Assembly (NCBI RefSeq): GCF_027595985.1
Contig: NC_073313.1
Span: forward strand, 115,769,552 to 115,833,551
Direction of reading: 5' to 3'
DNA: 64,000 nucleotides
Origin: Sorex araneus
Lineage: Eukaryota; Chordata; Mammalia; Eulipotyphla; Soricidae
The position numbers were made by a program, and so were the translations under genes. Positions 650 to 62,270 of the stretch are shown in pieces (position 1 is the first letter of the stretch; every line of letters starts with the position of its first letter). The notes below the pieces were generated by a model that worked only from the letters and a program-made list of their open reading frames with translations, was not told where the DNA came from and ran no database searches.

Positions 650-1258
650 TAGTTAAAAGTTACTATAGCACTGTAGCACTGTCTTCCCGTTGTTCATGGA
701 TTTTCTTGAGCGGGCACCAGTAATGTCTCCATTGTAAGACTTGTTACTATTTTTGGCATATTGAATACACCATGGGGAGCTGGCCTGGCTCTGCCGTGCG
801 GGCGGGATACTCTCTGTAGCTTGCTGGGCTCTCCAAGAGGGATGGAGGAATTGAACCCGGGTCGGCCACATGCAAGGCAAACACCATACCCGCTGCGCTA
901 ACAAAAACTATTGGGTGCCGCCAGCAGGTCAACCTGTACCTGCGGGACGAGTGCATCAGCAGCCTGATGGTGCCTTCAGACTTCCTGATATCCCAAAATT
1001 ATTGCTGTGCCTTTTTAATTTCTTGGTAAACTTGGGGCCAAGTTTACCAAGAAATTAAATGGCCAAAAGTTAGGGATGTGGGAGCCACAGCCACAAGCCA
1101 CATCTGGCTCAACTATACAAGTCCAGTTATTAGCCTTATTTCAGAGACCCATAAATCTTGAAAGAGATCAAAAGCCGCAGTTAGGGCAGGTGGCACAGTG
1201 TGATGCAGGTGAGTGGGTGCACCCTGCACCCAACTCTATGCCAATAGTTAAAAGTTAC
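650..1258 (-). mobile_element. RTE-tailed tRNA SINE carrying a ~340 bp 5' extension
   Basis: A perfect 14-bp direct repeat (tagttaaaagttac, 650-663 and 1245-1258) brackets the whole block, so 664-1244 went in as one piece. On the minus strand the 3' part (about 905-664) is a standard RTE-tailed SINE: truncated tRNA-like head with B-box, RTE-leader segment ending in ccaaaaatagtaacaa, then the RTE-like tail with gtgctacagtgctat repeats. The A-box end of the head is missing. Joined upstream of it (906-1244) is sequence absent from the other SINE copies here, including a perfect palindrome. This is either a chimeric insertion or a 5' read-through transcript. The SINE call is strong; the source of the extension is unknown. 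Confidence 0.8.
1014..1059. repeat. Perfect palindrome, 22-bp arms, 2-bp spacer
   Basis: Positions 1014-1035 and 1038-1059 are exact reverse complements, separated only by gg at 1036-1037. The arms could form a long hairpin in single-stranded DNA or RNA. It sits in the 5' extension of the SINE at 664-1244. A match this long and exact between arms is not expected by chance and suggests fold-back copying. Confidence 0.95.
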
Positions 1259-2088: not shown

Positions 2089-3098
2089 AACAAACATTTG
2101 CTTTGTGGCCTCACACTTCCGGGAGCTTGGTTTTATAGTCTCTGGGTGTTGGCCATTGGTGGGATTACAAGGCGCTGGGGGCAGTTTGTGAGTGCGGCTG
2201 CCAGGCTACTATAAAATGGGGTATCTGGATGGAGAAGGCTTAGTCCCAATCTGAGCAGGCCTAGAGATCACAGCCCCGGGTCCCTCACACCTGGGTTCCT
2301 CTGCTGGTCCCTTCATTGGTGAGGCTCATTCGAGCATGTGGAGAGTGGCCTTGAGCATGGCTGTGGCTGGGTTCTGGAGGTCTTCAACTGTCAAGGCTCT
2401 GCTTAGGGAAGGGAGGGAAAGGCAACCCGTCCCCTTTGAGGGGTCCCGGTGAAGACAGCCAGGTGCAGAGGGCAAGAGACGCTGTGTCACTCTTTTCTGG
2501 GAACTTGGTCTTAAAGTCTCTGGATTTTGGCCGTTGGTGGGATTACACTGTGCTGGGGCAAGTTTGTGATTGTGTCTGCCAGGATACTGGAAAATGGGGG
2601 GTCTGGATGGAGAAGGCTCAGTCCCAATCTGAGCAGGCTCGAAGATTTCAGTCCTGGATCCCACACACCTGGGTTGCTCTGCTGGTCCCTTCATGCGTGA
2701 GGCTCGCCCGGACATCTAATAGTCTTGTTCTCCTTCTTGGAGAACCTGACAAGCTACCAAGAGTCTATTGCCCGCACAGGAGAGCCTTGCAAGCTCTCCA
2801 TGGTGTATTCATATCCCCAATACAGTAAAAGATATATACATATCTCTTGGAGAGCCTGGCAAGCTACCCAGAGTATCCCGTCCACACGACAGAGCCTGGC
2901 AAGCTACCCGTGACGTATTCGATATGCCAAAAACAGTAACAATCGGTCTCATTCCCTTGATCCTGAAAGAGCCTCCAATTGTTGGGAAAGATGAGTAAGG
3001 AGAGGCTGATAAAATCTCGGGGCTGAGTGTAATAGAGATGTTACTGGTGCCCACTCGAGTAAATTGACGAACAATGGGATGACAGTGAACAAACACTT
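2089..3098 (+). mobile_element. Composite RTE-dependent element, copy A (rearranged head)
   Basis: Target-site duplications aacaaacattt (2089-2099) and aacaaacactt (3088-3098) enclose 2100-3087. The 3' part (about 2715-3087) reads as RTE leader (cttggagagcc, gcaagctaccc, gatatgccaaaaacagtaac, ctgaaagagcctcc, aaaatctcggggctg) followed by the RTE 3' end. Inside it the leader motif is partly duplicated (2740-2830 and 2845-2940). The head (2110-2710) holds two partial units of the family-specific module, both in the opposite orientation to copies B, C and D. It encodes no credible protein. The family is recognised from the four copies in this window. Confidence 0.8.
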
Positions 3099-4216: not shown

Positions 4217-4901
4217 CTCATTGGTATTCTGTATCGCTGTCATCCCGTTGTTCATCGATTTGCTCGAGCAGGCGCCAGTAATGTCTCCATTCGTCCTAGC
4301 CCTGAGATTTTAGCAGCATCTCTTTACTCATCCTTCCCAACAATGTTGCATTGGAGGCTCGTTCAAGGTCAGGGGAATGAGACTCATCATTGTTACTGTT
4401 TTTTGCATATCGAATATGTCACGGGGAGCTTGCCAGGCTCTGGCTGTGTGGGCAGGATACTCTGGGTAGCTTGCCAGTTTCTCCAAGAGGGAGAATTAGA
4501 CAATAAGAGGCTATGCAGCCATGAATTTGGCCGTGCGCTTCCAGGAGCTTTGTTTTATAGTCTCTGGATCTTGGCCATTGAGGAGATTCCATGAGTGACT
4601 GTCAAACTACTGGAAAATGGGGGACCTGGGTGGAGGAGGCCCTGTCCTGATCAGAGCAGTCTTGGAGATCTCAGCCCCAGGTCCCACATGCCTAGGTTCC
4701 TCTGCTGGTTCCTTCATGGGTGAGGCTCATCTGAGCATATGGAGAGTGGCCTTGAGCATGGTTGTGGCTGGGTTCCGGAGGTCTTCAGCTGCTGGGGCTC
4801 TGCTCGGGAAAAGGAAGGAAACTCAACCCACCACCCTCCGAGGGGCCCGGGTGAAGATAGCCAAGCGCATGGGCAGGAGACTCTGCCCTCTCATTGGTAT
4901 T
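4217..4901 (-). mobile_element. Composite RTE-dependent element, copy B (best-bounded copy)
   Basis: A perfect 12-bp duplication ctcattggtatt (4217-4228 and 4890-4901) encloses 4229-4889, about 661 bp. In minus-strand order it has a family-specific head of about 350 bp (4889-4535, starting cagagtctcctgcccatgcg), a short linker, an RTE-leader segment (about 4510-4290) and an RTE 3' tail (about 4290-4229) ending in cagcgatacag. Copies C and D share this arrangement. The head's origin is unknown and it has no conserved intact frame. A-box/B-box motifs are not evident, so the source promoter may not be of tRNA type. Confidence 0.85.
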
Positions 4902-5625: not shown

Positions 5626-7537
5626 CAATTTCATTTTTTTCATGTTAATCACTGTACTCTTTGATGAATGTTGTAAAACATAAGAAGGATGCTTATAAAA
5701 TATTCTATTAACCATTACTGCCATTAAGGCGTGTCTGTATTTAACCCATGAGGCATAATGATGATTTTTTTAACCTAACAGCAAATGCTTAATCACTTGT
5801 ATCACTTGTCATCCCGTTGATCTTCCATTGGCTTGAGCAGGCGCCAGTAACATCTCCATTTGTCCATGTAGAGTGCTAGGGTAGCCCAATGATATCTGCT
5901 CACTCCAGAAACAGGAAGAGCCTCAAAACGTTCATTCAGCGTTTTGATGAAGAAGTCTGACTATCTCGTTGGTAGGTGGCCACGCGGTCTTTTGACATCC
6001 TGTGGAATCCAGTCGGTAACAGCTCTAGCCCAGTGGTCATCTCTGAATCTCATTATGTGTCTGGCTCATCTGATTTTTGATGCTTTGGCAAACGAGACAG
6101 GGTCCCTGATTTTTGACCATTGATGGAGGTCAGAACTCCAGATTCCTTCTTTCACTTGAGTGAAACGTGATACAACAAGCATAGCTCTTTTGATTCCTCT
6201 TTGGGATAACCGAGTAGCGTTTTCATCCTGTTTTCATAGGGCCCAGGTCTCTGAGGCATATGTTAGTGCAGGAAGAATGGTGGAGTCGAAAAGATGTGCC
6301 CAGAGCCGGAGGTTCTATGTCCTCCTAACCATTTCTTCGATGCTCTTGAAGGCATACCACGCTGCTATCTTCTGCACAGTTCTGGCGCCAAGTAGTTCCT
6401 CATATTGAGTTCTCAACCCACGAACACACAGCTGCTGCATTCAGAGATGTTCATTCCATTGAGAGCAAATGGAACATCAGGAACTAGTTCATTTTTCATG
6501 AACATTGTTTTGGTGAGATTCAGCTGCAGTCCGACCTTTCCACACTCGCGGTCAAAGTCGGCCAGCATTTGTGTTGCTTTGCTAATGTTTGGTGTTTTGA
6601 GAACGTGATGTAATCAGCAAAGTGGAGGTGGTGTAGTTGCTGACCATCTATCTCCGCTCCCATTCCTTCCCATTCCAGTCATTGCATGACATTCTCCAGG
6701 GTGGCACTGAAGAGTTTCGTGGAAATGGTATCACCCTGCCAAACCCTCTCTTTATATCAATGATCACTTCCTTGTAGAACGGTGAGATCCTGGTGATGAA
6801 TCCATAATACAGCTCACAGAGGATCCTGATGTACTGTTTGAACACCCTGTTTGGCTAGGGCTTTGATAACCGCTTTAGTCTCAACAGAATAGAAGGCCTT
6901 CTTTAAATCAATGAACGTTAGATGGAGTCACATCTTGAACTCTTTTGGATCTTCAATGGGCTTGGTCACTGTGTGAATATGGTTGATCGTGCTGAATCCT
7001 TTTTGGAACCCGGCTTGCTCGCATGGTTGTCCTTTGTCTAGTGTTCTGCCTATTCTATTCAGGATAACTCGAGTGAACAATTTGTAGACAACGAACAACA
7101 GGAAGATTGGGCGATAGTTGCCAATGTTGTGGGTGTCTCCCTTCTTGTACAACAGAATGGTCCTGCTGGTTTTCCATTGGTATGGAACCTTGGATACAGA
7201 CAGGTAGCATGTGAAGAGCTGAGTCTGTATTGATGAGTACTGGTGGCAGATTCTTCAGATGTTCCATTCTGACCTTGTGCTGTATGGCGTGTCAGATTTC
7301 GGAAGGGAGGATGTTGGGAAGGACATATCCATCCTGTGGAATTTGATATGTAGGCAGGTGAACGTTAACTGTCAAAGAGATCCAAGTAGAAGCCATGAAT
7401 AATCCCCTCCATTGCCCTTCTGGAAGATGTGATAGATCCATCAGGATGTTGGAGGGCAGTCATCTTGGTCTTATAGTTGGCAAAGGAGAGGCGAGCCTTG
7501 CGAATACTTTTCCTGATTTCTACAGCATCAGCTAATA

Positions 7538-8164
7538 CTACCCAGCCAGTGCCACGCTCCAGGCCGCTTTCTGGACACTTGGGCCAGACCTCACACATTA
7601 TTGAAGCCCCACAGAACCAGGTAAAGCAGAACCTTGTGACCTTGGACTCCAGGCTCAGTGAGACCTGAAAACCAGATCTGCCTCCTCCAATCTCCGGTGC
7701 CCCGCCCCAGCGACCAAACCCAGATGACCCACCCTACGGGAGCCAGATAAAACCTCACCAGCAGACCTCCACTACTTCCACTACCCAGCCGCTGCCATGC
7801 TCCAGGTGGCTGTGCGACATAGCATAAGACACTTAATACCCATTTTCCATTATTTTTGCACCATATTTGATGGGCTTCAAATATGGTGTGAACTATGGGA
7901 ACACCTGTAAAGGCAGTTGGAGGCCGCCCTAAAAGCCTCCATTCCTCTCAGAGAGCCCAGTAATCTACCAAGAGTACCCCACCCGCACGGCAGAGCCTGG
8001 CAAGCTACTGGTGGCATATTCGATATGCCAAAAACAGTAACAACAATGGGCCTCATTTGCCTGACACCGAAAGAGCCCCCAATACGGCAGCATTAAGAAG
8101 GATGAGCAAGGAGAGGCTGATACAATCTCAGGGATGAACTAGACTGACAAAACGAAGAAAGATG
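7538..8164 (+). mobile_element. Inverted RTE 5' leader within copy 1
   Basis: The part 7930-8164 matches the 5' end of RTE copy 3 (reverse of 59430-59575): gccaaaaacagtaacaacaatgg, ctgacaccgaaagagccccc, cagcattaagaaggatgagc, caaaacgaag. Upstream, 7538-7930 is GC-rich and is probably the rest of the leader. It contains a repeated motif (7536-7565 and 7790-7819, 254 bp apart). The orientation opposite to the ORF part fits twin priming, in which the inner junction marks the 5' limit of the copied RNA. Confidence 0.65.
7859..7888. repeat. 12-bp-arm hairpin in the RTE leader region
   Basis: caccatatttga (7859-7870) and tcaaatatggtg (7877-7888) are exact reverse complements around a 6-base loop. 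It lies in the part of the leader with no second copy in the window, so conservation cannot be judged here. Confidence 0.85.
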
Positions 8165-9720: not shown

Positions 9721-9993
9721 GATAATGTGAACTGGAGAGATAGCACAGTGGGTAGGGTGTTTGTCTTGCATGCGGCCAACCCGGGTTTGATTCCTCCATC
9801 CCTCTCAGAGAGCCAGGCAAGCTACCAAGAGTATCCCACCCACAAGGCAGAGCCTAGCAAGCTACCCGTGGCGTATTCGATATGCCAAAAACAGTAACAA
9901 GTCTCACAATGGAGATGTTACTGTTGCCCACTTGAGCAAATCTATGAACAGTGAGACAACAGTGCTACAGTGCAGTGCTACAGATAATGTGAA
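9721..9993 (+). mobile_element. RTE-tailed tRNA SINE
   Basis: Perfect duplication gataatgtgaa (9721-9731, 9983-9993). The unit has a tRNA-like head with A-box tagcacagtggg and B-box ggtttgattcc (about 9732-9800), an RTE-leader segment (ccctctcagagagcc to gatatgccaaaaacagtaacaa, about 9800-9901), a junction gtctcaca, and the RTE 3' tail (atggagatgttactg onward) ending in repeated cagtgctacagtg. It has no poly(A). It is one of the clearest examples of the three-part structure. Confidence 0.92.
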
Positions 9994-11400: not shown

Positions 11401-13557
11401 TTTTTTCTTTTTTCTTTTTAATTTTATTGAATAACCGTGAGCTAGTCACAAGCTTTCATGTTTGGGTTACAATCTCACAATGATCAAACACCCTCCCTCC
11501 ACCAGTGCACATTCCCCACCACCAATATCCCGGGTATACCCCCCCTTTTCCACCCTCTCCCTGTCTCTATGGCAGACAATATTCCCTATAATCTCTCTCT
11601 ACTTTTGGGAATTATAGCTTGCAACACAGACACTGAGAGGTCATCATGTTTGTTCCATTACCTACTTTCGGCATACATCTCCCATCCCAACTGGTTCCTC
11701 CAGCCATCATTTTCTTAGTGATCCCTTCTCTATTCTATCTGCCTTCTCCCCTCCATTCGTGAAGCAGTCTTCCAGCTATGGAACAATCCTCCTGGCCCTT
11801 GTATCTACTGTCCTTGGGTGTCAGCCTCATGTGACATTATTCTATATGGCACAAATGAGTGCAGTCCTTCTATATCTGTCCCTCTCTTTCTTTTTTTTTT
11901 TTTGCTTTTTGGGTCACACCTGGCGATGCACAGGGCTTACTCCTGGCTCTGCACTCAGGAATTGCCCCTGGCCGTGCTCAGGGGACCATATGGGATGCTG
12001 GGATTTGAACCCGGGTCAGCCGCGTGCAAGGCAAATGCCCTACCCGCTGTGCTATCTCTCCAGCCCCTGTCCCTCTCTTTCTGACTCATTTCACTTAGCA
12101 TGATACTCTCCTCTCCATGTCTATCCATCTATAAGCAAATTTCATGACTTCATCTCTCCTAACAGCTGCATAGTATTCCATTATGTAGATGTACCAAAGT
12201 GTCTTTAACCAGTCATCTGTTCTAGGGCACTCAGGTTGTTTCCATTTTTTGGCTATTGTGAACAGTGCTGCAATGAATATATAGGTAGAGATGTCATTTC
12301 TACTGTGCTTTTTTGCATCCTCGGGATATATTCCCAGAAGTGGTATTGCAGGGTCATACAGAAGCTCAATTTCTAGTTTCTGAAGGTTTGTCCATATTGT
12401 TTTCCAGTTGGCATTCCCACCAACAGTGCAGGAGCGTCCCTTTTCCCCCACATCCATGGCAGCACTGGTTGATTTTGTTCTTTTGAATGTGTGCCAGTCT
12501 CTGTGGAGTGAGATGATATCTCATTGTTGTTTTGATTTGCATCTCCCTGATGACTAGCAATTTGGAGCATTTTTTTCATGTGCCTTTTGGCCATTTGTAT
12601 TTCTTTCTTGAGGAAACTTCTGTTCATTTCTTCTCCCCATTTTTTGATGGGGTTGGAGGTTTTTTTCTTATACAATTCTACTAGTGTCTTGAATATCCTT
12701 GATATTAATCGCTTATCAGATGGGTATTGGGTAAATACTCTTTCCCATTTTGTGGGTTCTTTCTGTATTTTGGTCACTGTTTCTTTTGAAGTGCAGAAGC
12801 TTCTTAGTTTGATGTAGTTCCATTTGTTTGTGTTTGCTTCCACTTGCTTGGTCAGTGCTGTTTCATCCTTAAAGATGCTTTTAGCTTCAACGTTATGGAG
12901 AGTTCTGCCTACATTTTCTTCTATGAACTTTATAGATTCATGTCTGTTATTGAGGTCTTTAATCCACTTTGATCTGACTTTTGTGCCTCGCATTAGACAG
13001 AGGTAAGAGTTCATTTTTTGTAGGTAGCTATCCAGTTTTCCCAGCACCTCTTGTTGAAGAGGATCTCCTTGTTCCACTTCACATTTCTTGCTCCTTTGTC
13101 AAATATTAAGTAACTATATATTTGGGGATCTATGACAGGATATTCAACTCTGTTCTATTGGTTTGCATGTCTGTTTATAGCCCAATACCATGCTGTTTTA
13201 ATTACTACTGCTTTGTAGTACAGTTTGAATTTGGGGAAGGTGACCACCCATCTTCTTTTTTTTCCAATGATTGCTTCAGCTATTTGTGGGGGTTTATTTT
13301 TTCATATGAATTTCGCTAGTTCCTTGTCTATTTCTTGAAAAATGTCATGAATATCCTGATAGGGACTCCATTAAGTTTGTATAGTGCTTTGGGCAGTATT
13401 GCCATTTTGATAATGTTAATTCTCCCTATCCATGAGCAGGGGATGTGTCTCCATTTCCTAGTGTCCTCTTTTATTTCTTGAAGTAATGTTTTGTAATTTT
13501 CCTTGTGTAGGTACTTCACATCTTTGGTTAAGCTGATTCCCTGGTACTTGATTTTCT
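11400..13557 (-). mobile_element. L1 LINE with 3' half of ORF2 (5'-inverted insertion)
   Basis: Minus strand, 5' to 3': an ORF2 segment (13557-12095, broken by frameshifts) reading [35 protein letters not shown], then the C-terminal domain ending near FIAALFTIAKKWKQPECP and YIMEYYAAVRRDEVM. The zinc-knuckle-like region reads NQCCHGCGGKGTLLHCWWEC. A 3' UTR and poly(A) follow to 11400. A SOR SINE interrupts it at 11892-12066. The reverse transcriptase domain is absent. At 13557 the sequence flips orientation. Confidence 0.9.
11876..12082 (-). mobile_element. SOR-type SINE, full length, in L1
   Basis: A perfect 16-bp duplication ctgtccctctctttct (11876-11891, 12067-12082) encloses 11892-12066. 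Minus strand: head with A-box tagcacagcggg and B-box, SOR body with cccatatggtcccctgagc, ending gtgtgacccaaaaagcaaaa plus poly(A). It is young, because head and body are well preserved. The L1 carrying it must be older. Confidence 0.95.
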
Positions 13558-20440: not shown

Positions 20441-21660
20441 CACCAGAATGGCACTTTTACAAGGGAGTGCACTACAGTGACGCATCATAAACTCCCAAAG
20501 TCCATAATTTTACCCCAAGGTTCTCACTTGGTATTATACATTTTATAAGATTGGATGAATACATAAAATCATGCAACCATATTATAATGTCATACAGAAT
20601 ATTCTTACTGTCCTAAAAAGTCTATTTTTTACCACCAATTCAACCCCTTGTCCATCCCTCAACAATCTCTGGTTGTTTTTAATAATTCCATAATTTTGAC
20701 TGTTGCAAAGTCACATATACTTGGAATCATAGAGTATGAATGAAGCCTTTACAAATAGACTTCTTTTACTCAGTCATTTGCATTTATGTTTCCTTCAGGT
20801 CTTTCTATGACCTGATAGACCATTTATTTGTAATAATAAATTCCATTCCACTGTCTTGATGTACTATAGTTTGTTCATCTATTTACATAATGTTTTGGCT
20901 GCTTATACGATTTATCCACTATGAGCTGGAGCAATATAGCACAGTGGATAGGGTGTTTGCCTTGCACGCGGCCGACCCGGGTTTGATTCCTCCATCCCTC
21001 TTGGAGAGCCCAGCAAGCTACCGAGAGTATTATATCCGCATGGCAGAGCCTGGCAAGCTACCCGTGGTGTATTCGATATGCCAAAAACAGTAACAATAAG
21101 TCTCACAATGGAGACGTTACTGGTGCCCAGTCGAGCAAATTGATGAACAATGGGACTACAGTGTGACAGTGCGAATAAACAATGTGTTGTTGCTTACAAG
21201 ATTTCTCCACTATGAAGAAAACTGCAATATAAATATGCAGGCTTGTGTAGACACATTTTTTCAAGGAGAACACAAACACAGTCTCCCACTACCACAAATT
21301 ATGTAGTCAAGTTTCCCACATTTGGGGAAATCACAGGAGTTAGCACATTTCTTGGGATGCAATGGATGAGCTTTGCCCTGGGAAAACTACCTTTATGATC
21401 ATAGCGTTCCTCTTGCAAGATAAGTACATATTTTTGATTGAGTGCATATCAGTGAGTTTTGTTCATATGAGTCAGTATGTTAGATTTGTAAAAAGCCATG
21501 AAACTATCTTTCAATGCAGCCTTACCATTTTTTCATTCCCACTAGTACGCAGAGGGCCTATTGCTCTACAATCTAATCAGCATTACTTTTTGTGTTACAG
21601 ATTTTAGCCATTCTAGTAGGTATGTAGTTGTATCCCATTATTGTTGGGGATTTTTTTCAT
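20440..21660 (-). mobile_element. Ancient eutherian L1 (L1M-type) 3' region
   Basis: The plus strand resembles the reverse of old mammalian L1 3' sequence: ggaatcatagagtatgaatg, tgacctgatagaccatttat, tccattccactgtcttgatg, tttgttcatctatttac, gcaggcttgtgtagacac, cattctagtaggtatg. Diverged, and split by a younger SINE at 20925-21184. Confidence 0.6.
20894..21215 (+). mobile_element. RTE-tailed tRNA SINE in ancient L1
   Basis: The element spans about 20925-21184, with head (tagcacagtggatagggtg, B-box gggtttgattcc), RTE-leader segment to gatatgccaaaaacagtaacaa, junction, and tail gagacgttactggtgcccag ending in a short repeat. Flanks share gatttatccactatga / gatttctccactatga, extending to about 30 imperfect bases. 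A long, variable duplication is common for RTE-type insertion. Confidence 0.9.
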
Positions 21661-25140: not shown

Positions 25141-25405
25141 GTTAACATGGTCTGTAGTACTGTCTGTCTTCCCATTGTTCATCTATTTGCTCGAGCGGGC
25201 ACCAGTAACATCTCCATTGTGAGACTTGTGTTACTGTTTTTGGCATATCGAATACACCATGGGTAACTTGCCAGGCTCTGCCATGCAGGCGGGATACTCT
25301 AGGTAGCTTGCCAGGCTCTCCAAGAAGGAATCGAACCCGGGTTGGCCACGTGCAAGGCAAATGCCCTACCCGCTGTGCTATCTCTCCAGTCTTGTTAATA
25401 TGGTC
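25141..25405 (-). mobile_element. RTE-tailed tRNA SINE
   Basis: Flanks gttaacatggtc / gttaatatggtc (25141-25152, 25394-25405; 11 of 12). On the minus strand the tail region is open in the RTE frame and reads WRCYWCPLEQIDEQ, matching the C-terminus of the RTE ORF (copy 2 reads EWRYYWCPLKQIEDQRDD). This shows directly that the SINE tail descends from RTE coding sequence. Head and leader segment are well preserved. Confidence 0.92.
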
Positions 25406-26086: not shown

Positions 26087-26666
26087 GTCTGAGGACCATC
26101 ACTGTATCACTGAATTACTGTCATCCCGTTGCTTATCGATTTGGTCAAGTGGGCACCAGTAATGTCTCCATTTGTCCCTGTCGCGTTCAGGGTCAGGGGA
26201 ATGAAGCCCATTATTGCTACTGTTTTTGGCATATAGAATACGCCAAGGGTAGCTTGCTAGGTTCTGCCATGCGAGATTCTACATTGCCTTCTTCCGGGAG
26301 CTTTGTTTTATAGTCTCTGGATCTTGGCCATTGATGAGATTACATGGTGCCAGGGGGAGTTTGTGGGTGTGACTGCCAAGCTACTGGAAAACGAGGTCCT
26401 TGGTGGAGGAGCCTCAGTACCAATTTGAGTAGGCTTGGAGATCTCAGCCACGGGTCCTGCATACCCGAGTTCCTCTGTCAGTTCCTTCATTGGTGAGGCT
26501 TGTTCGAGCATGTAGAAAGTGGTCTTGAGCATGGCTGTGGCTGAATTCTGGAGGTTTTTGACTGCCGGGGCTCTGCTTGGGATGGGGAGGGAAACTCAAC
26601 TCGGGTCCCTCCAAGGTTCCCCAGTGAAGAAAGCCTGGCACGGGGGCAGGAGATTCTGAGAACCAA
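26087..26666 (-). mobile_element. Composite RTE-dependent element, copy C
   Basis: Imperfect flanks tctgaggacca / tctgagaacca bound about 26099-26652. It has the same order as copy B: RTE tail (26120-26180, with tgtcatcccgttgcttatcg), RTE-leader segment (26185-26275, shortened), and the family head in reverse (26290-26652, gggagctttgttttatagtc to gcaggagattctg). The leader is internally deleted compared with B and D. Confidence 0.8.
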
Positions 26667-30004: not shown

Positions 30005-31625
30005 GGGTCACTTGTCACGTGTCATCCCTTTGATCTTCTATTTGCTTGAGTGGGCACCAGTAATATCTCCATTCGTCCCTGTCGCGTGCTAGTGTAGCCC
30101 AATGATATCTGCTTGCTACAGAAACACGAAGAGCCTCAAACTGTTTATTCAAGGTTTTAGCGAACAAGTCTGACCATATCGTTGGTGGGCGGCCAAGCAG
30201 TCTTTTGACATTCGGTAGAGTCCAGTCGGTAACAGCTCTAGTCCAGAGGTCATCTCTGAATCGCATTATATGTCCGGCCCATCTGATTTTTGACGTCTTG
30301 GCAAAGGAGACAGCGTCCGTGATTCTTGACTGTCAACGGAGGTAGGAACTCCAGATTACTTCTCTCACTTGAGTCAAACGTGATACTCCAAGCATAGCTC
30401 TTTTGATTCCTCTTTGGGAGATCCAAATAGGGTTCTAATCCTGTTTTCTTTTCGTATGGCCCAGGTCTCTGAGGCATATGTTAATGCAGGAAGAACAGTG
30501 AAGTCAAAAAGATGTGCCTGGAGCCAGAGGTTCTTTGTCCTCTTAACCACTTCTTTGATGCTCTTGAAGGCATTCCACACTGCTCTCTTCCTCCTGCGCA
30601 GTTCTGGCACCAAGTCATTCCTCATGTTGAGTTCTCAACCCAGGTATACATAGCTGCTGAATTTGGAGATGTTCATTCCATTGAGAGCAAATGGAACATC
30701 AGGAACTAGTTTGTTTTTCATGAACATCGTTTTGGTGAGATTCAGCTGCAGTCCGACCTTTCCACACTCTTGGTCAAAGTTGGCCAGCGTTTGTGCCACT
30801 TGGCTAATGTTTGGTGTTATGAGAACAATGTCATCAGCAAAGCGGAGGTGGTGTAGCTGCCGACCATCTACCTTCACTCCCATTCCTTCCCATTCCAGTC
30901 TTTGCATGACGTTGTCGAGGGTGGCACTGAAGAGTTTCGGGGAAATGGCATCACCCTGCTGAACCCCTCTCTTTACGTCGATGATGACTTCCTTGTAGAA
31001 TGGTGAGATCCTGGTGGTGAGTCCGTAGTACAGCTCACAGAGGATCTTGATGTACTGAGTTTGAACACCCTGTTTGGCTAGGGCTTTGATAACCGCTTTA
31101 GTCTCAACAGAATGGAAGGCCTTCTTTAAATCAATGAAAGTTAGACAGAGTGTCATCTTGAACTCTCGTGAAGCTTCAATGGGCTTGGTCACTGTGTGGA
31201 TATGGTCGATCATGCTCGATCCTTTTCAGAACCCAGCTTGCTCGCATGGTTGTCCTTTGTCTAGTGTTCTGCCTATTCTATTCAGGATGACTCGAGTGAA
31301 CAACTTGTAGATGACGGACAGCAGGCAGATTGGGCGATAGTTGCCAATGTCATGGGTGTCTCTCTTCTTGTACAACAGAATGGTCCTGCTGGTTTTCCAT
31401 TGGGACGGAACCTTGCATTCATACAGGTAGCATGTGAAGAGCCGAGTCAGTGTATTGACAAGTACTGATGGCAGATTCTTCAGATGTTCGGGTCTGACCT
31501 TGTCTGGATCAGGTGTTATATGAGTCTTTACTGATGAAATGACGTGTCGGATTTCAGAAGGGCAGACATTGGGAATGACATACCTCTTGGGGTATGGTAT
31601 GCAACATAGACAAGTGAATTCAATG
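30005..31625 (-). mobile_element. RTE-clade LINE, copy 2 (reverse transcriptase half, best preserved)
   Basis: Minus strand, 5' to 3': truncated in the linker near 31620, then the reverse transcriptase. An uninterrupted 192-codon frame (31213-30635) contains LCLTFIDLKKAFHSVET, GVQQGDAISPKLFSATL, HHLRFADDIVLITPN and GLQLNLTKTMFMKN. The catalytic FADD box is at 30830-30841 and intact. The rest to 30015 is frameshifted but reads TYASETWA, then the C-terminus EWRYYWCPLKQIEDQRDD, ending in gtgacacgtgacaag-type repeats without poly(A). The residues are those of RTE-1-type elements known best from nematodes. Dead, because both the endonuclease and part of the ORF are missing. Confidence 0.92.
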
Positions 31626-34168: not shown

Positions 34169-34996
34169 TACACCTAAGGGTGGGCTGGAGCCATAGTGTT
34201 AGGGCGCGGATTGAGATCTCCCTATAACGACAAAGAGACTCCAGAGACTGCAAACAGCAAGCAGGGTTTATTGTAAGACTGTCTAGCCAGGGTCCAGCCG
34301 CCTACACGGACATGCAGGTCCAGCAGGTTGGGCAAAAGACCCCGAGCTTCTCCAAAGGAGATCTTATATAGGCCTTCCCCGGCCGTTACAGCAGAGCCCG
34401 CGCATTTCATAGCCAATAAATTTGTAATATTGCAAACTTTCTTAACCAATCCATTTAAAAGGACATCACTCCTTAGCCTATGGTTTTAGAGATCAGTATT
34501 CGCACCAATATTCAGGAATGTCCCGGTTCTGGGGGCAGTCCTGGGTCTTGTGATACGGGTCATGTGATATGGGTCTGGTTATCTGGTCTGACCACCACCC
34601 TTCTTGCGAACCGGGGTGCCTGTATCTGAATTCCTTGCTCAGGGGCAGAAAATCAAGTTATTCTAGAATGCGGGCTCCAGTAGAAAGAGTCTTAAGAAAG
34701 CTAAATAGATTCCTGTGGTCTGTCCTGGGCCAGATCCTCACAATAGCACAGCAGGTAAGGCATTTGCCTTGTACGTGGCTGATCTGGGTTCGATTCCTTC
34801 GCCCCTCTCAGAGAGTCTGGCAAGGTATTGAGAGTATCTCACCCACAGGGCAGAGCCTGGCAAGCTACCTGTGGCATATTCAATATGCAAAAAAAAAAAA
34901 TAAACCAACCAGTAACAAGTCTCACAATGTAGATGTTACTGGTGCCCACTGGAGCAAATTGATGAACAATGGGACAACAATGCTACACCTAAGGGT
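34169..34996 (+). mobile_element. RTE-tailed tRNA SINE split by a solo LTR
   Basis: A perfect 13-bp duplication tacacctaagggt (34169-34181, 34984-34996) encloses the element. Its first 15 bases (34182-34196) and the remainder (34747 onward, after the 4-bp host repeat) are separated by an LTR placed exactly within the A-box. The leader segment (to atatgcaaaaaaaaaaataaa, mutated) and RTE tail (atgttactggtgcccactgg) are present. Confidence 0.93.
34197..34742 (-). mobile_element. Solo LTR of an endogenous retrovirus (546 bp, 4-bp TSD)
   Basis: The unit begins TG and ends CA on both strands and is flanked by atag (34193-34196, 34743-34746). On the minus strand a TATA-like tatataag lies around 34371-34378, upstream of an AATAAA signal in cttacaataaaccc (about 34268-34281), giving U3-R-U5 order on that strand. 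No internal retroviral sequence is present, so the provirus recombined to a single LTR. A 4-bp duplication is typical of gammaretrovirus-like (class I) elements. Confidence 0.88.
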
Positions 34997-35042: not shown

Positions 35043-35245
35043 AAAAAATAAGATAGGGGCTGGAGCGATAGCACAGCGGGTAGGGCGTTTGCCTTGCACG
35101 CGGCCAACCCGGGTTCTAATCCCAGCATCCCATATGGTCCCCTGAGCATCGCCAGGGGTAATTCCTGAGTGAAGAGCCAGGAGTAACCCCTGTGCATCGC
35201 CGGGTGTGACCCAAAAACCAAAAAAAAATTAAAAAAAATAAGATA
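35043..35245 (+). mobile_element. SOR-type SINE, full length (reference copy)
   Basis: Perfect 13-bp duplication aaaaaataagata (35043-35055, 35233-35245). The element at 35056-35232 has A-box tagcacagcgggtagggcg, B-box gggttctaatcc, cccatatggtcccctgagc, two related units catcgccaggggtaattcc and catcgccgggtgtgaccc, and an A-rich tail. It is among the least diverged copies here, so probably recent. Mobilisation by L1 is inferred from the tail. Confidence 0.95.
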
Positions 35246-35918: not shown

Positions 35919-36622
35919 AAATTTAGGGTCCAGAGACTATAAAACCAAGCTCCCAGAGCCAGCGACACAGAGTCTCTTGCCCCCATGCCTGGCTGTCGTC
36001 ACCGGGGCCCCTTGGATTGGGTGGGTTTAGTTTCCCTCCCTGCCCCGAGCAGAGCCCCAGCAGTCAAAGACCTCCGGAACCCAGCCACAGCCATGCTCAA
36101 GGCCTCTCTCCACAGGTTCAGATGAGCCTCATGGATGAAGGAGCCAGCGGAGGAACCCAGGTATGCGGGACCCGGGCTGAGATCTCCATGACTGCTCGGA
36201 TCGGGACTGGGCCTCTTCCACCAAGATCCCCCTTTTTCCAGTAGCTTGAGGGTCATACCCAGAAACTGCCTCCAATGCCGTGTAATCCCATCAACAGCCA
36301 ACATCCAGAGACTACAAAACAAAGCTCCCAGAAGTGTGTGGCTGATTAGAGGCTGCACGACATCTTATAGCTTAGTTATCCTTCTTGGAGAACCTGGCAA
36401 GCTACCGAGAGTTTCCTGCCTGCACGGGAGAGCCTGGCAAGATCCCAGTGGCATATTCATATACCAAAACCAGTAACAATGATGGGTCTCATTCCCATAA
36501 CCCTGAAAGAGCCTCCAATGTGGCACCATTCGGAAGGATGAGTAAAGAGAGGCTTCTAAAATCTCAGGGCTAGGACGAATAGAGAAATTACTGAGACTGC
36601 TCGAGAAAACTGATGATCAACG

Positions 36623-47814: not shown

Positions 47815-48472
47815 AAAAGGAGGAAGACAAGGAAGAGGAGGAAGGAAGTGCACGATACAGTACACAGAGATCCACCAGTGAAAGAAGAGGCAATGGAAAA
47901 AAAAAGGATATACTCAAGAGGATAACGGAGGAGGAGGAGGAGGAGGAGAGAGAGAGGAGAGAGGAGGAGGAGGAGAAAGGAGGAGGAGAAGAGGAGAAGA
48001 AGGAGAAGAAGAAGAAGAAGAAGAAGAAGAAGAAGAAGAAGAAGAAGAAGAAGAAGAAGAAAAGAAAAGAAGAGAAGAAGAAGAAGAAGAAGAAGAAGAA
48101 GAAGGAAGAAGAAGGAGGAGAAGAGGAGAGGAGGAGGAGGAGGAGGAGGAGGAGGAGGAGGAGAGAGAAAGAAGAAGAAGAGAAAGAATGAAGAAGAAGA
48201 AAGAAGAAGAAGAAGAAGAAGAAGAAGAAGAAGAAGAAGAAGAAGAAGAAGAAGAAGAAGAAGAAGAAGAAGAGAGAGAGAGGAGGAGGAGGAGGAGGAG
48301 GAGGAGGAGGAGGAGAGGAGAAGGAGAAGGAGATAGGAGAAAGGAGAAGGAGAAGGAGAAGGAGAAGGAGAAGGAGAAGGAGAAGGAGAAGAGAAGAAGA
48401 AGAAGAGAAGAAGAAGAAGAAGAAGAAGAAGAAGAAGAAGAAGAAGAAGAGAGAAGAAGAAGAAGACTGTCA
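47815..48472. repeat. (GAA)n / (GGA)n polypurine tract, ~650 bp
   Basis: Blocks of gga, gaa, ggagaa and gagaga with very few pyrimidines (t at 47911 and 48189, for example). It ends exactly at the 3' end of the minus-strand RTE-tailed SINE at 48472. Together with 47495-47755 it gives nearly 1 kb of purine-strand bias, capable of triplex structure. Confidence 0.97.
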
Positions 48473-48718
48473 CCACTGTCATCCCATTGCTCATCGATTT
48501 GCTCAAGTGGGCACTAGTAATGTCTCCATTGTGAGACTTGTTGTTACTGTTTTTGGCATATTGAATACGCCATGGGTAGCTTGCCAGGCCTCTGCCGTGC
48601 GGGTGAGGTACTCTCGATAGCTTGCCGGACTCTCCGAGAGGGACGGAGGGATTGAACCCGGGCCAGCCACATGCACAGCAAACACCCTACCTGCTGTGCT
48701 ATCTCACTCCAGCCCCAT
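48472..48718 (-). mobile_element. RTE-tailed tRNA SINE
   Basis: The plus strand reads tgtcatcccattgctcatcg, gtaatgtctccattgtgag, tactgtttttggcatattg, cgccatgggtagcttgcc, gggattgaacccgggcc and ctgctgtgctatctcactcc. All three modules are present. Its tail side is joined to the GAA array, so no duplication is readable. Confidence 0.9.
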
Positions 48719-55235: not shown

Positions 55236-55764
55236 TGTCACTTGTCATCCCCTTGATCCTCGATTTGCTCGAGCAGGTGCCAGTAACATCTTCATTCGTC
55301 CCTGTCGTGTGCTAGTGTAGCCCAATTGTATCTGTTTACTACAGGAACACAAACAGCCTCAAATTGTGCGTTCAGGGTTTTGACCAAGAAGACTGACCAT
55401 ATCTCAAATGGGCAGCCACGAGGTCTTTTGACATCTCGTGGAATCCAGTTGGTAAGAGCTCTAGTCCAGCAGTCGTCACTAAATCACATTAAGTGTCCAG
55501 CCCATCTGGTTTTTGGCAAAGGAGACAGCGTCCCTGATTCTTGATCATCGACGGAGGTCGAACTCCAGATTCCTTCTCTCACTTGAATGGAACATGATAC
55601 TCCAAGCATAGCTCTTTTAATTCCTTTTTAGGATACCCGAATAGCGTTCTCATCCAGTTTGCATAGGGCCTAGGTCTCTGAGACATATATTAGTGCAGGA
55701 AGAACAGTGGAGTCGAAAAGATGTGCCCGGAGCCAGAGGTTCTTTGTCCTCTTACCCACTTCTT

Positions 55765-55955
55765 CGACACTCTTTATTTTTTTGCTTTTTGGGTCTCACC
55801 CAGCAATGCTCAGGGGTTACTCCTGGCTTTGCACTCAGGAATTGCTCCTAGCAGTGCTTGGGGAACCATATGGGATGCCGGGGATCGAACCCGGGTCGGC
55901 CACGTGTAAGGCAAACGCCCTACCCGCTGTGCTATCACTACGGCCCGACACTCTT
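55765..55955 (-). mobile_element. SOR-type SINE inside RTE copy 3
   Basis: cgacactctt at 55765-55774 and 55946-55955 flanks a full minus-strand SOR: ttttttgctttttgggtctcacc, ggggaaccatatgggatgcc, ggatcgaacccgggtcggcc, tgctatcactacggcc. A third copy of the same ten bases at 56629-56638 ends the next insertion. Confidence 0.92.
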
Positions 55956-56638
55956 TTTTTTCTTAATTGAATCACCATGTGGAAAATTACAATGCTTTCA
56001 GGCTTAAGTCTCAGTTATACAATGCTGAAACAACCATCCCTTCACCAGTGCCCATATTCCACCACCAAAAAAAAAAAAAAGTATACCTCCCATCCCTCCC
56101 ACCCTCATCCCTTCCCTGCCCCCGCCTGGGTAACTGATAAATTTCACTTTAATTTCTCTTTACTTTGGTTACATACAACATTTCAACAAAAATCTCACTA
56201 TTATTGTTAGGAGTTCCCCATTAGAGTCAGACCTTTGGTGAAGAGATATGAGGTCACGCGGCCGCAATTGAGGTCGTGTGGCCACAATTGCAGCCCTGCA
56301 GTTTTGGATTTCTGTATTTTAGCAACTAAGTCCAGGGAAATTTCTTCCAGAAATTGTATCATTGCAAGCTTGTATCTCTCATTACTGGTCCTCATAATAC
56401 GGCGGTCGCCACGCCCTTCCCCTCACACAGCAAGGAAAAGGCAAGAGAGAGAAAAACCTTTCCCCTCCTGAGCAGGCATGGGGCCGCGGCTTAGTTCTCA
56501 GTCTGGAGACATTCTGCAAGGAGCTGCCGGTATCAAAAGTAGTTTAGCTGGCCTCTGGAATCATGCTCCTGCAGCTGCAGTGGGGCCACACACATGCGGC
56601 CCCCGGGATCACATCTCGCCGGCCTCTTCGACACTCTT
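55956..56638 (-). mobile_element. Short L1-related element, longer copy, inside RTE copy 3
   Basis: The element spans about 55956-56624, with target repeats tcttcgacactctt (55761-55774, interrupted side, and 56625-56638). The minus-strand 5' end is GC-rich (ggccggcgagatgtgatccc), about 105 bp longer than the copy at 38281, then gcgaccgccgtattatgagg (mutated YY1-like site), a short frame (MRTSNERYKLAMIQFLEEI), the shared L1-type 3' UTR and an A-rich tail. It confirms that the unit moves on its own. Confidence 0.85.
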
Positions 56639-56773
56639 GAAGGCATTCCATGCTGTTCTCTTCCTCCTGTGCAGTTCTGGCGCCAAGTCATTCCTCATGT
56701 TGAATTCTTGACTCAGGTACACACAGTTGCTGGGTTTGGAGATGCTCATTCCACTGAGAGCAAATGGAATGTC

Positions 56774-57286
56774 AGGGACTGCAAAAAACTAAGGCTCGCC
56801 GAGGGGTGTGTGCAATCTCGGGCTCTCTGGGCGACTGTCTCACCACCCGCATTTGGTGCTCTGGAACCGCTGTGTATGGGCTGGATCGGGATGGCCATTG
56901 GCCAAGGACAGGCAAAGGAATAACGAGGACCAAGCTGGTTGTTGATTAGTTACCGTTTATTCAATCTTCCATCTTTCTCATCTCCCGCACTCCCAGCTCT
57001 GTCCTCTCTCTGGATCTACTGCCGCCTCTCTCCCATCTCTGTCCTCCCTTTCTCCTCTCTTGCCCTTGCCCCTAGGTTACACACTGCCAGGTCCTGTGTC
57101 CATACAAAAAGGACATTGCTCTGAATAATCTATGCAAAGGACTCAAGGAGAAGAGAAAAACAATATTTACAAGTCAACAGAACACTAAGAAAAAAGCTAC
57201 AAATAAACAAAGAGGAGTGGGAGCACTGTAACAGGAGTAACCAAATAAACCTAAACTACCTGAGGCTATGTAATCCTACAAGGGAC
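56774..57286 (-). mobile_element. Solo LTR (501 bp, 6-bp TSD) inside RTE copy 3
   Basis: Perfect agggac flanks (56774-56779, 57281-57286). The unit runs 56780-57280 from TG to CA. On the minus strand AATAAA occurs in gattgaataaacggtaac (about 56948-56965), with U5-like sequence after it ending in ttagttttttgca. RTE reading resumes at ctagttcgtttttcatgaac. No internal retroviral sequence remains. The 6-bp duplication suggests a class II (betaretrovirus-like) source. It differs clearly from the LTR at 34197. Confidence 0.9.
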
Positions 57287-59575
57287 TAGTTCGTTTTTCA
57301 TGAACATTATTTGGGTGAGATTCAGCTGCAGCCTGACCTTTTCATACTCACGGTCAAAGTCAGCCAGCATCTGTGCCGCTTGGCTAATGTTTGGTGTTAT
57401 TACAACAATGTCATTAGTGAAGAAGAGGTGGTGTAGCTGCCGACCATCTACTTTCACTCCCATTCCTTCCCATTCCAGTCATTGCATGATGTTCTCGAGA
57501 GTTTCAGTGAAATGGTATCACCCTGCCGAACCCCTCTCTTTATATCAATTATTACTTCCTTGTAGAATGGTGAGAACCTGGTGGTGAATCTGTAATACAG
57601 CTTGAGGAGGATCTTGATGTACTGAGTTTGAATTCCCTGTTTGTGTAGGGCTTCTATTACCACTTCAGTCTCAACAGAATCGAAGGCCTTCTTTAAGTCG
57701 ATGAACGTTAGACAGAGCGTCATCTTGAACTCTCATGAAACTTCAGTGACCTTGGTCACTATGTAGATATGATCAACTGTGCTTAATCCTTTGAGAACCC
57801 AGCTTGCTTGCATGGTTGTCCTTTGTCTAGTGTTCTGCCTATTCTATTCAGGATGACTCAAATGAACAACTGGTAGATAACGAACAACAGGTAGATTGGG
57901 CGATAGTTGCTGATGTCGTGGATGTCTCCCTTCTTGTACAACAGAATGGTCCTGCTGATTTTCCATTGGGATGGAATAATCTTGCATTCGGACAGGTAGT
58001 GTGTGAAGTGTCAAGCCAGTGTATTGACGAGTATTGGCGGCAGATTCTTCAGGTGTTCGGGTCTGACCTTGTCTAGACAGGTGCTGTATGCGTCATTACT
58101 GACCAAATGGCGTGTCGGATTTTGGAAGGAAGGATGTTGGGAACGACATATCTATCCTGCGAAATTTGGTATGTGGGCAGGTGTACGTGGCTGTCAAAGA
58201 GATCCTAGTAGAAGTCATGACTAATCCTCTTGGTTGCCCTTCTGGAAGATGTGATAGATCCATCAGGACATTGGACAGCAGTTATCTTGGTCTTGTATTT
58301 GGCAAAGGACAGGCGAGCATTGCGAATACTTTCCCTAGCTTCTGCCGCATCAGTCAAGACTACTGCTCTTCTCTCTTTGAGGTCTTCCTTTATCGCTTTC
58401 TCCACAGCTTTGTGAGCTCGGAACTTAGCTTGTGATTGCCTGAGGCTCGCTCCAGACCACGAGGCAAATGAGCTTGAGAGTTTCTGAAGACAAGTGTCTT
58501 TTTCTGGCTTTCTCTCTCTTGGCATTCCTCGCACAATCCTGGATGTGATGAACCAGTCGATCATATTCCTCGTCGATGTTGTCAAGGACAGCATCTTCTC
58601 ACATTGCTGCAATAGTGCCAAAGAGCTCCCAGTTGGTGGTCATTCTGGGAGTTCTCTTCTTAAACTTAAACTTTGCAGTCCTTTGTCCTCACTCTGTGAA
58701 GTAGAATTTTGCATGAAGGAGATGTGTTCCAATCCCGTTTGGGATTTTGGGACAACAGCGACATTGGTCAGGCAAAATCATTAATTGAATATGATGTGGT
58801 CAACTTCATTGTGGAACTCTCTACCAGGAGTCTCCCCTGTCCAACGTTTAGATTCGGCCTTCTGGAACTGTGAATTACCATGGATGGTCTTAGTCAACAT
58901 GATGAACTCAGACAGTCTCTCACCCTGTTCGTTCCATTCTAGGCCATATGTCCCAATCTGGAGTTCTTTGGGTCATTTTCTCGGTCCTATCTTGGCATTC
59001 AAGTCACTTACAATGATCTTGTAGAAGGTGTTGTCTTTATAGAACTTCTCCAGCTCCATGTAGAATTTCTCAATTTCTTCTTCATCATAGTTGGATGTTG
59101 GTGCTTAGATGATGAAGATAGAAACTGAGCCACATCAATTCAAGCATAATCATCAGATTCGGGTTGTTAGGCACTCAAATGAATCAATGCTCATGGCCAA
59201 GTTCGTGTTGACAAGGACACCGACACCACCGACGCCTCTATTGTCACATGTTCCGAGGAAGAGTTCTTCTCCAGTGTTGAAAATGGCATGATGTGATTGG
59301 TGCCTTCTGGTCTAGGTCAGACCAATGATGTCATACTTTATCTTCTGCACTTGCACCATCATGTCTTTGATGGATGCTTCCAACACCAGCACACTTGTGT
59401 TGAAACTGCAGATAATCATTTTAGTCCCTCTTCGTTTTGGCAGTCTAGTTTGTCCCTGAGATTTTATCAGTGTCTCCATGCTCATCCTTCTTAATGCTGC
59501 CATATTGGGGGCTCTTTCAGTGTCAGGCCCATTGTTGTTACTGTTTTTGGTATCTCAAATACACCATGGGTAGCT

Positions 59576-60290
59576 TGAAAAACACATAATTTATGCTAAA
59601 AATTAATTAATTTATTAATATTGGAAATGATGCAAACATTTGAAAAAGTTTCAGTGTTAGTCCTAACTGTGGTAAATATCAAAGACTTTAAACCACATTA
59701 ACAAAGTCTTTCAGTGACCTCAATTACTTCTAATTCTGAGGTTTCTTGAGGCTAAAATATTTGAGTATTAACTTCACTAACTGATACAAACTAAATACCT
59801 TCTGAAGTTCAGTCCTTAAGGTACTGTTACTGATATTGTGGTCATGTCTTGATATACTCACTGAAGAGACAGTAATATATAGAGAATTCTTAGTAATTTT
59901 TTAAATGGGAGGTATCTGTTCCTGGTAGAGCTGGACTGGCACAGCCAGGATGCCCAGGAGCCAGCAGAGTCACACCCATGGGTGCTCCTGGTGAGGAGCA
60001 GTGCCAGAGATTGAACTCAGGGCCTTCCAGATGTCAGGTAAGTGGAACTGCCAGTAAAACTATGTCTTTTAATAAGATGGAGATCAAGTATACTCCTAAT
60101 GAATCATGTGCCTGTTAGCAATTTGAAGAACTGTGGGCTAAATTGTATAGAAAATGTGTCTTAGAAGAAGAGTGGCTTTGCAGAAAACAGGTAAAAGTTT
60201 CTGTCTACAAAGACAAACTTCTCACTCTAGCTAATAACCTCTCACACTGGCCTCTAATCCTATTTCGACTTTAGAATCACAAGGATGATT
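59576..60290. other. Unassigned; SINE remnant near 59920-60050
   Basis: gtcacacccatgggtgctcc, cagtgccagagattgaactcagg resemble a reversed, decayed SOR piece. The rest is unrecognised. Confidence 0.4.
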
Positions 60291-61560: not shown

Positions 61561-62270
61561 GCATTTTAAAATTATTTTAAAGATTTGCATTTAAAAAAAA
61601 AGAAAGAAATGTATGTATACTTAATCTGGCAGGGGAGATACCAGGATCACGAAGGTGTTTTTCCCAGGGCAAGGCTTGTCCACTGCATGCCACATGGGCT
61701 GACTCCTGCAATTTAACTCAAACGTGGGAAGCTTGACTGCATAATTTGCTGTAGTGGGGGACTGCGTTCATGCCCTTCCCTGTTCCCTGGAAAAACATGT
61801 CTATTTGGGGTAAAATACGAGCTCCTAGGTGATTGTGAGGAGCTGTGTTTGGTAAGCACTAACCAAATTAACAGACACTCAGAATTTTTGTCCTCCTGCT
61901 GAAATTATTGTGGAAAATAAAAGAGTATGTGCAGGTTCTTCTTTTTTGCCTCTGCTGATGGGAACACCCATCTCTGCAATAAAGTAAGGATGGTAAACCT
62001 AACCTGATTTGAAAACAGGGACTGCTAAAGGGTTGAAAGTCATCATCAAATGTTCTGTATTTAAAATTGTGATTTGGTGCCAAGTATTTTACTCAGTAGT
62101 AAAATACTAGCTTTATGTGTATGAGGCCCTATGTTTGATCCATAATATAACAAAATAATACTAATATAGTACTAATTTTGAATGGGAATGGGGTAGGATG
62201 TGAGCCAGAAATAAAGCACTTGACTTGCAATTGTGAGGCTCTCAGTTAAATTTCAGTATAGAAAAAATTA
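61561..62270. other. Mostly unassigned; weak SINE heads near 62070 and 62190
   Basis: gccaagtattttactcagtag and aaagcacttgacttgcaattg may be decayed tRNA-like heads. Otherwise nothing is recognised. Confidence 0.35.

Follow-up and report, generated by a model that had tools for sequence, protein, structure and literature searches.

A shrew SINE composed of the promoter end of an older SINE and two pieces of an RTE retrotransposon

How does a short retroelement come to carry two separate pieces of a LINE behind the promoter end of another SINE, and which LINE moves it? The question is raised by a repeat at positions 9721-9993 of a 64,000-nucleotide stretch of the Sorex araneus genome (the window). 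An earlier note on this DNA read the repeat as a tRNA head followed by an RTE 5' leader and an RTE 3' coding end, and this plan is borne out by BLAST and by alignments. The abundant shrew SINE to which the repeat belongs is a three-piece hybrid, made of an older SINE's promoter end and two separate RTE pieces. Its parts at this locus are the following:

9721-9993, forward strand: hybrid SINE from target-site duplication (TSD) to TSD, the body (9732-9982) lying between identical 11-bp duplications
9721-9731, forward strand: 5' TSD GATAATGTGAA, the same 11-mer standing at either end of the hybrid SINE
9732-9794, forward strand: Sor-type (tRNA-Ala-like) pol III head, 63 nt, of the kind found at the start of the poly(A) SINE Sor
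9795-9900, forward strand: inner segment of the RTE 5' UTR, RTE1 type, 106 nt (BLAST, RTE alignment, diagnostic bases)
9901-9907, forward strand: inner joint GTCTCAC, 7 nt, between both RTE pieces
9908-9960, forward strand: RTE 3' coding end, 53 nt, C-terminal WRxYWxPxEQI... region, GATGAACAA type
9961-9982, forward strand: tandem terminal repeat (AGTGCTAC)n, 8-nt unit, without poly(A)
9983-9993, forward strand: 3' TSD GATAATGTGAA, the same 11-mer as at the 5' end

The head appears from its sequence to be of pol III type (Sor/tRNA-Ala type), and 9732-9794 includes A- and B-box-like sequences. Behind it the element carries a fragment from the 5' region of its presumed partner RTE and an RTE 3' terminal fragment, whose repeat AGTGCTAC resembles AAGTGATAC of RTE1 and AGTGATAC of a Bov-A-like element in the same genome. 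When 9721-9993 is used as a BLAST query, its bases 77-180 match RTE 5' leaders (2839-2951, 4492-4390, 7936-8043, 36378-36479, 59577-59535 and others), and bases 188-252 match RTE 3' ends (3031-3087, 4291-4229, 5860-5798, and also 26172-26108, 30073-30020, 50747-50683 and 55296-55243). The same search against the window finds six near-complete copies of the hybrid SINE, five of them besides the one at 9721-9993:

668-900, reverse strand: hybrid SINE copy, head 12 nt short
20922-21172, forward strand: hybrid SINE copy
25152-25390, reverse strand: hybrid SINE copy
34743-34987, forward strand: hybrid SINE copy
48466-48715, reverse strand: hybrid SINE copy (BLAST match 48466-48712)

All six copies listed in the earlier note exist, with one coordinate in error: 34182 has no BLAST match, and the copy lies about 560 bases further on, at 34743-34987. 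The tail of the copy at 25152-25390 translates as had been claimed (TGG AGA TGT TAC TGG TGC CCG CTC GAG CAA ATA GAT GAA CAA, read as WRCYWCPLEQIDEQ). A single plan runs through 33 aligned copies (28 loci, including the window copy as L001, and the five other window copies), the inner joint being mostly CAGTAACAAGTCTC or CAGTAACAACAAGTCTC.

The genome-wide count of copies that had been proposed was made on exact joint sequences. The 35-base inner joint, in one of its two variants, occurs 22,986 times in the 2.406-Gb genome and the 30-base head joint 11,994 times, with 0 occurrences of either reversed control, so that chance cannot account for these joints. Fourteen copies with at least 200 bp matched lie in a non-random sample of 259 kb (the window together with 195 kb flanking 65 loci), or about one per 18.5 kb; extrapolation gives about 130,000 copies per genome, or about 100,000 from the 8 copies in the flanks alone. 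An RTE segment follows 14 of the 71 full heads in this sample. The Sor head stands on 41 of 42 bodies that span the hybrid SINE joint, the remaining one (L080) being cut before the head.

To which element did the shared segments originally belong? The window holds several pieces of the RTE itself:

55240-59577, reverse strand: long RTE copy that starts within the 5' leader and reaches the 3' end, with broken frames and interrupted by other repeats
5798-6221, reverse strand: RTE 3' end (BLAST)
30017-30430, reverse strand: RTE 3' end, with a reverse transcriptase (RT) stretch just upstream that matches RVT_1
7867-8112, forward strand: RTE1-type 5' UTR fragment

The RT stretch near 30.6-31.0 kb matches Pfam RVT_1 with E 2.5e-14, and a second, nuclease-side RTE piece has no Pfam match. 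By host, RT domain (RVT_1) and abundance, the partner RTE is presumably RTE1_Sar. Further RTE loci were obtained by a search with the first 1.9 kb of the long copy, in which 40 of 13,244 first-look candidates were scored and 43 matches listed; these gave 30 loci, of which 29 were used, L009 being the window itself. A second RTE subfamily is recognizable by GCCAACAAC in the leader (L014, L017, L020, L028, L032, L038 and others) and forms an 11-locus group with support 1.000 in a FastTree tree; by divergence, one half of its core looks younger than the hybrid SINE. Rfam searches of four RTE loci, up to E 1, returned only two weak microRNA matches, in L010 upstream of the RTE; these lie far below the gathering score, and the idea that the RTE 5' end harbours a ribozyme or another known RNA family was dropped.

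The direction of transfer could in principle be the opposite of the one assumed so far, as the earlier note had itself considered: an RTE might have captured a SINE, the shared segments being originally the SINE's and picked up by the LINE, and about 106 nt are indeed common to both on the RTE 5' side. In the 5'-end alignment, however, the shared segment continues upstream into longer, other RTE leader in 19 of 22 RTE loci, while the other three (L012, L027, L030) and the window copy end at or within it, and a tRNA head precedes it in none of the 22 loci nor in the window copy. It follows that the RTE was the source of the shared sequence and the SINE its recipient. Both shared segments stand about 3 kb apart in the RTE loci, without a head. 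The 3' piece, moreover, corresponds to the C-terminal coding part of the RTE ORF. In 7 of 10 copies (the other three gave no reading) the last codon of this ORF is for K and the stop lies at or within the terminal repeat, which implies that the RTE has hardly any 3' UTR and that the 3' piece of the SINE is coding sequence. Capture is thus refuted for the copies read (22 RTE loci, none headed), and as a general account it is scarcely credible.

If the body comes from an RTE, where does the head come from? The window is rich in a poly(A) SINE with GATTCCCAGCATCCCATATG in its sequence, which is the forward primer listed for a Soricidae-specific SINE assay in Table 1 of PMC8608897. We call it Sor because the primers in that table match its sequence; a shrew SINE of this name is referred to as a T- SINE in passages of PMC8466645 and PMC11240701. 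The first 66 nt or so are common to Sor and the hybrid SINE, the rest of the body and the tail being different: in the 33-copy alignment the Sor body and poly(A) tail are absent from the hybrid SINE and the head alone is shared. Two Sor heads in the window coincide with tRNA calls:

35060-35131, forward strand: head of a Sor copy (ARAGORN tRNA-Ala(tgc) call at 35061-35133)
11992-12063, reverse strand: head of a Sor copy (ARAGORN tRNA-Ala(tgc) call at 11990-12062)

Since they coincide with SINE heads, these two calls are hardly tRNA genes. Divergence ranges from 0 to 0.485 among 81 Sor matches and from 0.006 to 0.097 among 14 hybrid SINE copies; the wider spread of Sor, with far more diverged copies, suggests that it gave its head to the hybrid SINE and not the other way. 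The head is thus of tRNA type, as the earlier note had it, but it was probably taken from the existing SINE Sor and not recruited afresh from a tRNA gene.

The insertion sites bear on which LINE does the moving. TSDs were sought in both families by an identical procedure, with swapped flanks as controls, in sets that are non-random, most SINE copies being those nearest the query. Fourteen of 36 complete hybrid SINE copies have TSDs of 9-16 bp (control 0) and the other 22 none at the settings used; for Sor the figure is 33 of 53 copies, with 11-21 bp (controls 2). None of the 14 hybrid SINE duplications starts with AAA, against 16 of 33 for Sor (Fisher p 1.6e-3), and at least four A among the first five bases are found in 1 of 14 for the hybrid SINE and in 25 of 33 for Sor (Fisher p 1.6e-5). 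Sor has the L1 signature and the hybrid SINE is without it, its retroposed copies with a TSD standing at sites that are not of L1 type (1 of 14 A-rich). At locus L083 a hybrid SINE splits a Sor copy, with 14 bp of Sor duplicated, a clean case of retroposition into known sequence and the sole one among the seven split candidates listed, the other six being without a complete insert. RTE copies have TSDs in 1 of 20 cases at the stricter threshold (a doubtful one, within leader repeats) and in 3 of 20 at a looser one, too few for comparison.

Could L1 nevertheless still move the hybrid SINE, with the RTE pieces as mere passengers? One argument for this is the source of the head, since copies of Sor end in poly(A) and their TSDs begin A-rich. 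The hybrid SINE, however, has no poly(A), its tail being an RTE-like 8-nt repeat, and the disparity in A-rich TSDs just given also speaks against continued dependence on L1, which we consider very improbable. Its lack of both a poly(A) tail and A-rich L1-type insertion sites points instead to a change of partner, so that the hybrid SINE probably switched from L1 to RTE. Sor differs from it in body, tail and TSDs, and so probably in its partner LINE.

The hybrid SINE is not the sole short derivative of the RTE in the window. The earlier note had drawn a parallel with BovB and BovA, and it extends further, for this genome also has a Bov-A-like element without a head, which joins an RTE 5' segment to a similar RTE 3' end through an internal deletion:

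4229-4520, reverse strand: Bov-A-like element, the part that served as query for this family, RTE 5' segment plus RTE 3' end
2731-3087, forward strand: Bov-A-like element, two tandem 5' segments and then one 3' end
26108-26271, reverse strand: Bov-A-like element, shorter, with a different joint
36378-36548, forward strand: Bov-A-like element, 5' segment

Exact matches to its 34-base joint number 7,834 genome-wide (control 0). Among 30 copies, 7 have TSDs above the stricter threshold (control 0), in part within simple repeats. A 12-bp TSD of the window copy places its start about 370 nt upstream of the part that served as query and gives it a length of about 660 nt; the further 5' end of the element has only stretches of about 25-48 nt in common with the RTE1 leader. 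The copy at 2731-3087 looks like a partial dimer, with two RTE 5' segments before one 3' end, an arrangement like that of Bov-A2.

Which RTE gave which piece? A site-by-site comparison of 33 SINE copies, 30 Bov-A-like loci (one of them the window's), 21 RTE 5' ends and 20 RTE 3' ends gives a divided answer. The 5' piece of the SINE has the RTE1 base at site 84 (G, where Bov-A-like copies have A) and at site 136 (A, where they have C), and it contains AACAACAA, the RTE1 form, where Bov-A-like copies have AACAATGATGG; position 109 is likewise RTE1-like, at a CpG site only 0.62 uniform in RTE1. The 3' piece has the Bov-A-like base at 220 (T, RTE1 having A) and at 223 (A, RTE1 having T), the two types of RTE 3' end contrasted here being GAAGATCAA and GATGAACAA. 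At sites 200 and 240 the SINE is unlike both. Judged by these bases, the SINE either mixes two RTE types or had a parent of a rare RTE type. With its two RTE pieces of differing type, no parental RTE is present among the loci read, though L030 comes near.

The possibility of a rare parent, a single RTE subfamily with an RTE1-type 5' UTR and a GATGAACAA-type 3' end that would make the SINE no mixture at all, turns on this one locus. L030 does combine RTE1 leader bases with a GATGAACAA 3' end. It is only 1 of 23 RTE 3' ends read (20 loci and 3 window copies), however. It also retains a terminal repeat of the AAGTGATAC kind and has undergone deletion and divergence; a single parent deserves serious consideration, but we lean somewhat against it. 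This 5'-truncated copy also starts at the TCCATCCC point, where the RTE piece of the SINE starts, which may be either chance or a trace of the parent.

Another route to a mixed element would be stepwise, as Bov-tA from Bov-A: a headless short RTE derivative first, its head acquired later. The greater age of the Bov-A-like copies (0.100 vs 0.064, p 0.023) and the diagnostic 3'-end bases (220 T, 223 A) that they share with the SINE would fit such an order. Against it speak the RTE1 bases of the SINE 5' piece at 84, 136 and in AACAACAA, and the different inner joints of the two elements; among the 42 bodies the sole headless form of the SINE joint is one cut copy. We regard a stepwise origin as unlikely.

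The ages just mentioned are K2P distances from a leave-one-out consensus, with CG/TG/CA sites masked and flank excluded. They amount to 0.064 for the hybrid SINE (n=14), 0.100 for the Bov-A-like element (n=14), 0.055 for the RTE1-A 3' end (n=19, made up of 16 from the best-matching loci and 3 window copies at 0.071, 0.076 and 0.086) and 0.054 for RTE1-B (n=11). The Bov-A-like element is older than both the SINE and RTE1-A (for the latter p 5e-5), and no difference in age was found between the SINE and RTE1 (p 0.52, 0.26). The two halves of the 1.9-kb core give 0.050 and 0.056 for RTE1-A and 0.031 and 0.047 for RTE1-B, the first half of RTE1-B being below the SINE divergence (p 0.003). The K2P values thus place the activity of the SINE together with that of RTE1, after an older wave of RTE-derived elements. 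The estimate that was to establish the SINE as younger than its RTE does not support that order: the divergences overlap, as is expected for a working pair. If the RTE reached shrews solely by horizontal transfer, as a reading of PMC6542046 would have it, the SINE was assembled after the transfer. At assumed, not measured, rates of 2-5e-9 per site per year, 0.064 corresponds to about 13-32 My; PMC11544316 gives the origin of shrews as 30 My ago.

What could be the mechanism of mobilization? Starting from the observed structure, its two joints, the scale of its copy number, its TSDs and the lack of an L1-type signature, we consider it highly probable that a tRNA-headed SINE is mobilized by an RTE-clade LINE. 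RNA polymerase III would transcribe the hybrid SINE from the Sor head, and the SINE RNA would end in a copy of the RTE 3' end with the terminal repeat. Because this RNA ends like the RTE's own, the RTE protein could use it in trans through the shared 3' end, its reverse transcriptase priming on the RNA where the target has been nicked (target-primed reverse transcription); such target sites would not be A-rich. Such a scheme draws on the anatomy, the tail, the TSDs and the known biology of RTE-clade SINEs. The RTE 5' UTR piece was probably kept since RTE-clade proteins would need it in cis. As for the birth of the element, an RTE RNA with an internal deletion was probably being reverse-transcribed when the template was switched to a Sor RNA. 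A switch is suggested by the head joint GATTCC|TCCATCCC, where Sor (GATTCCCAGC) and the RTE (AAGCCTCCATCC) have only CC in common; at this short match Sor's poly(A) body would have been swapped for RTE ends, and its head moved from L1 to RTE.

The 5' piece is kept in both short RTE-derived families seen, the sequences upstream of it being different, and a core of about 106 nt is common to RTE1, the hybrid SINE and the Bov-A-like element, the last of these having a mostly different sequence at its further 5' end. We tentatively hypothesize, while thinking it a little less probable than its denial, that this core acts in cis as an RNA signal, needed by RTE proteins along with the 3' end. A horizontally acquired RTE would then have exposed the requirement through two non-autonomous shrew families that keep both pieces, one of them using the head of an L1-dependent SINE. 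The fold of the SINE body pairs CAGUAAC...GUUACUG and GUCUC...GAGAC across the joint, and the whole body has z -1.95, with 6 of 200 shuffles at least as stable; folds of separate pieces have z -1.37, -1.81, 0.20 and -0.76. An RNA contact between the two RTE pieces was dropped, being not significant against dinucleotide shuffles: duplexes as good or better arose in 44 of 300 shuffles for the SINE, 74 of 300 for the Bov-A-like element and 26 to 98 of 100 for 12 RTE copies. Neither local 5'-3' complementarity (37, 118 and 54 of 400 shuffles) nor four stricter complementarity scorings (38 to 299 of 400) reached significance. The fold of the 5' UTR core segment is likewise not significant against shuffles. 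By eye, the core consensus (e.g. at 9795-9900) contains a tandem pair of hairpin-like repeats, whose loops (AGAGCCYGGCAAGCTA) are nearly identical and whose stems differ (CTCGG/CCGAG, CACGG/CCGTG).

The plan of a SINE with bipartite RTE sequence is already known from Bov-tA, AfroSINE, Ped-1/2 and the AviRTE SINEs. The last of these (ManaSINE1, GymnSINE and others) are described as having a bipartite tail from the AviRTE 5' and 3' UTR (Suh et al. 2016, PMC4844689), and thus resemble the shrew element in joining a promoter head to an RTE 5' UTR piece and an RTE 3' end. AviRTE is reported there as horizontally shared with parasitic nematodes, with lineage-specific SINE emergences and heads in birds (PMC4844689). 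As far as that account goes, the AviRTE SINEs differ in RTE family and host, in their heads (tRNA-Glu, 5S rRNA, 28S rRNA or GC-rich, the shrew's being an existing SINE) and in the 3' piece, which is 3' UTR in them and coding sequence in the shrew. The pairing of a headless RTE-end element and a tRNA-headed SINE beside one RTE recalls Bov-A2 and Bov-tA with BovB in ruminants, as summarized in PMC3747384. On that summary, in a comparison of plan, Bov-tA has a tRNA-Glu head and BovB ends, whereas the shrew SINE has a Sor/tRNA-Ala-type head and RTE pieces of two types. Ped-2 of the springhare, listed with BovB as its partner (PMC3747384), has the head of an existing SINE (ID), as Sor's is used here. 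Ped-1 and Ped-2 are unlike the shrew SINE in host, head and LINE. Their bipartite detail is reportedly given by Gogolevsky 2008. A 28-base Bov-A pattern had no match in viral contigs, and a distant phage search with the hybrid SINE gave no match.

RTE1_Sar, an abundant shrew RTE LINE and the presumed partner, can be set beside the RTE of the window by description. It is reported to occur in S. araneus and in nine species of nematodes, with which it is shared horizontally, and searches of reads from hedgehog, solenodon and star-nosed mole gave no significant hits (Dunemann & Wasmuth 2019, PMC6542046); the words SINE and non-autonomous are absent from the main text of that paper. The entries consulted in the SINE/LINE table of Ohshima 2013 include many RTE pairs, of which none belongs to a shrew, and Sorex is not mentioned in the main text (PMC3747384). 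No published description of this SINE/RTE pair was found; Repbase, Dfam, SINEBase and subscription papers were outside the search, and one may exist there. What appears to be new is a shrew pair of known plan, its special interest lying in the probable switch of partner from L1 to a reportedly horizontally acquired RTE. If the RTE came from nematodes as published, the pair would be a mammalian counterpart of AviRTE, in which a foreign LINE gave rise to a large native SINE family. Since the donor Sor, with its L1 signature, and the switched derivative coexist in one genome, the change of partner can be read from the insertion sites. The hybrid SINE marks RTE sequences that may suffice for mobilization, and its perhaps 100,000 insertions offer a set for shrew phylogenetics; their presence or absence across soricids would bracket the time of the transfer and that of the SINE's origin.

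The window also contains two full-length matches to U1 snRNA, at 21263-21427 (reverse strand) and 61617-61782 (forward strand), scoring 98.3 and 91.1 bits, which are probably retropseudogenes.
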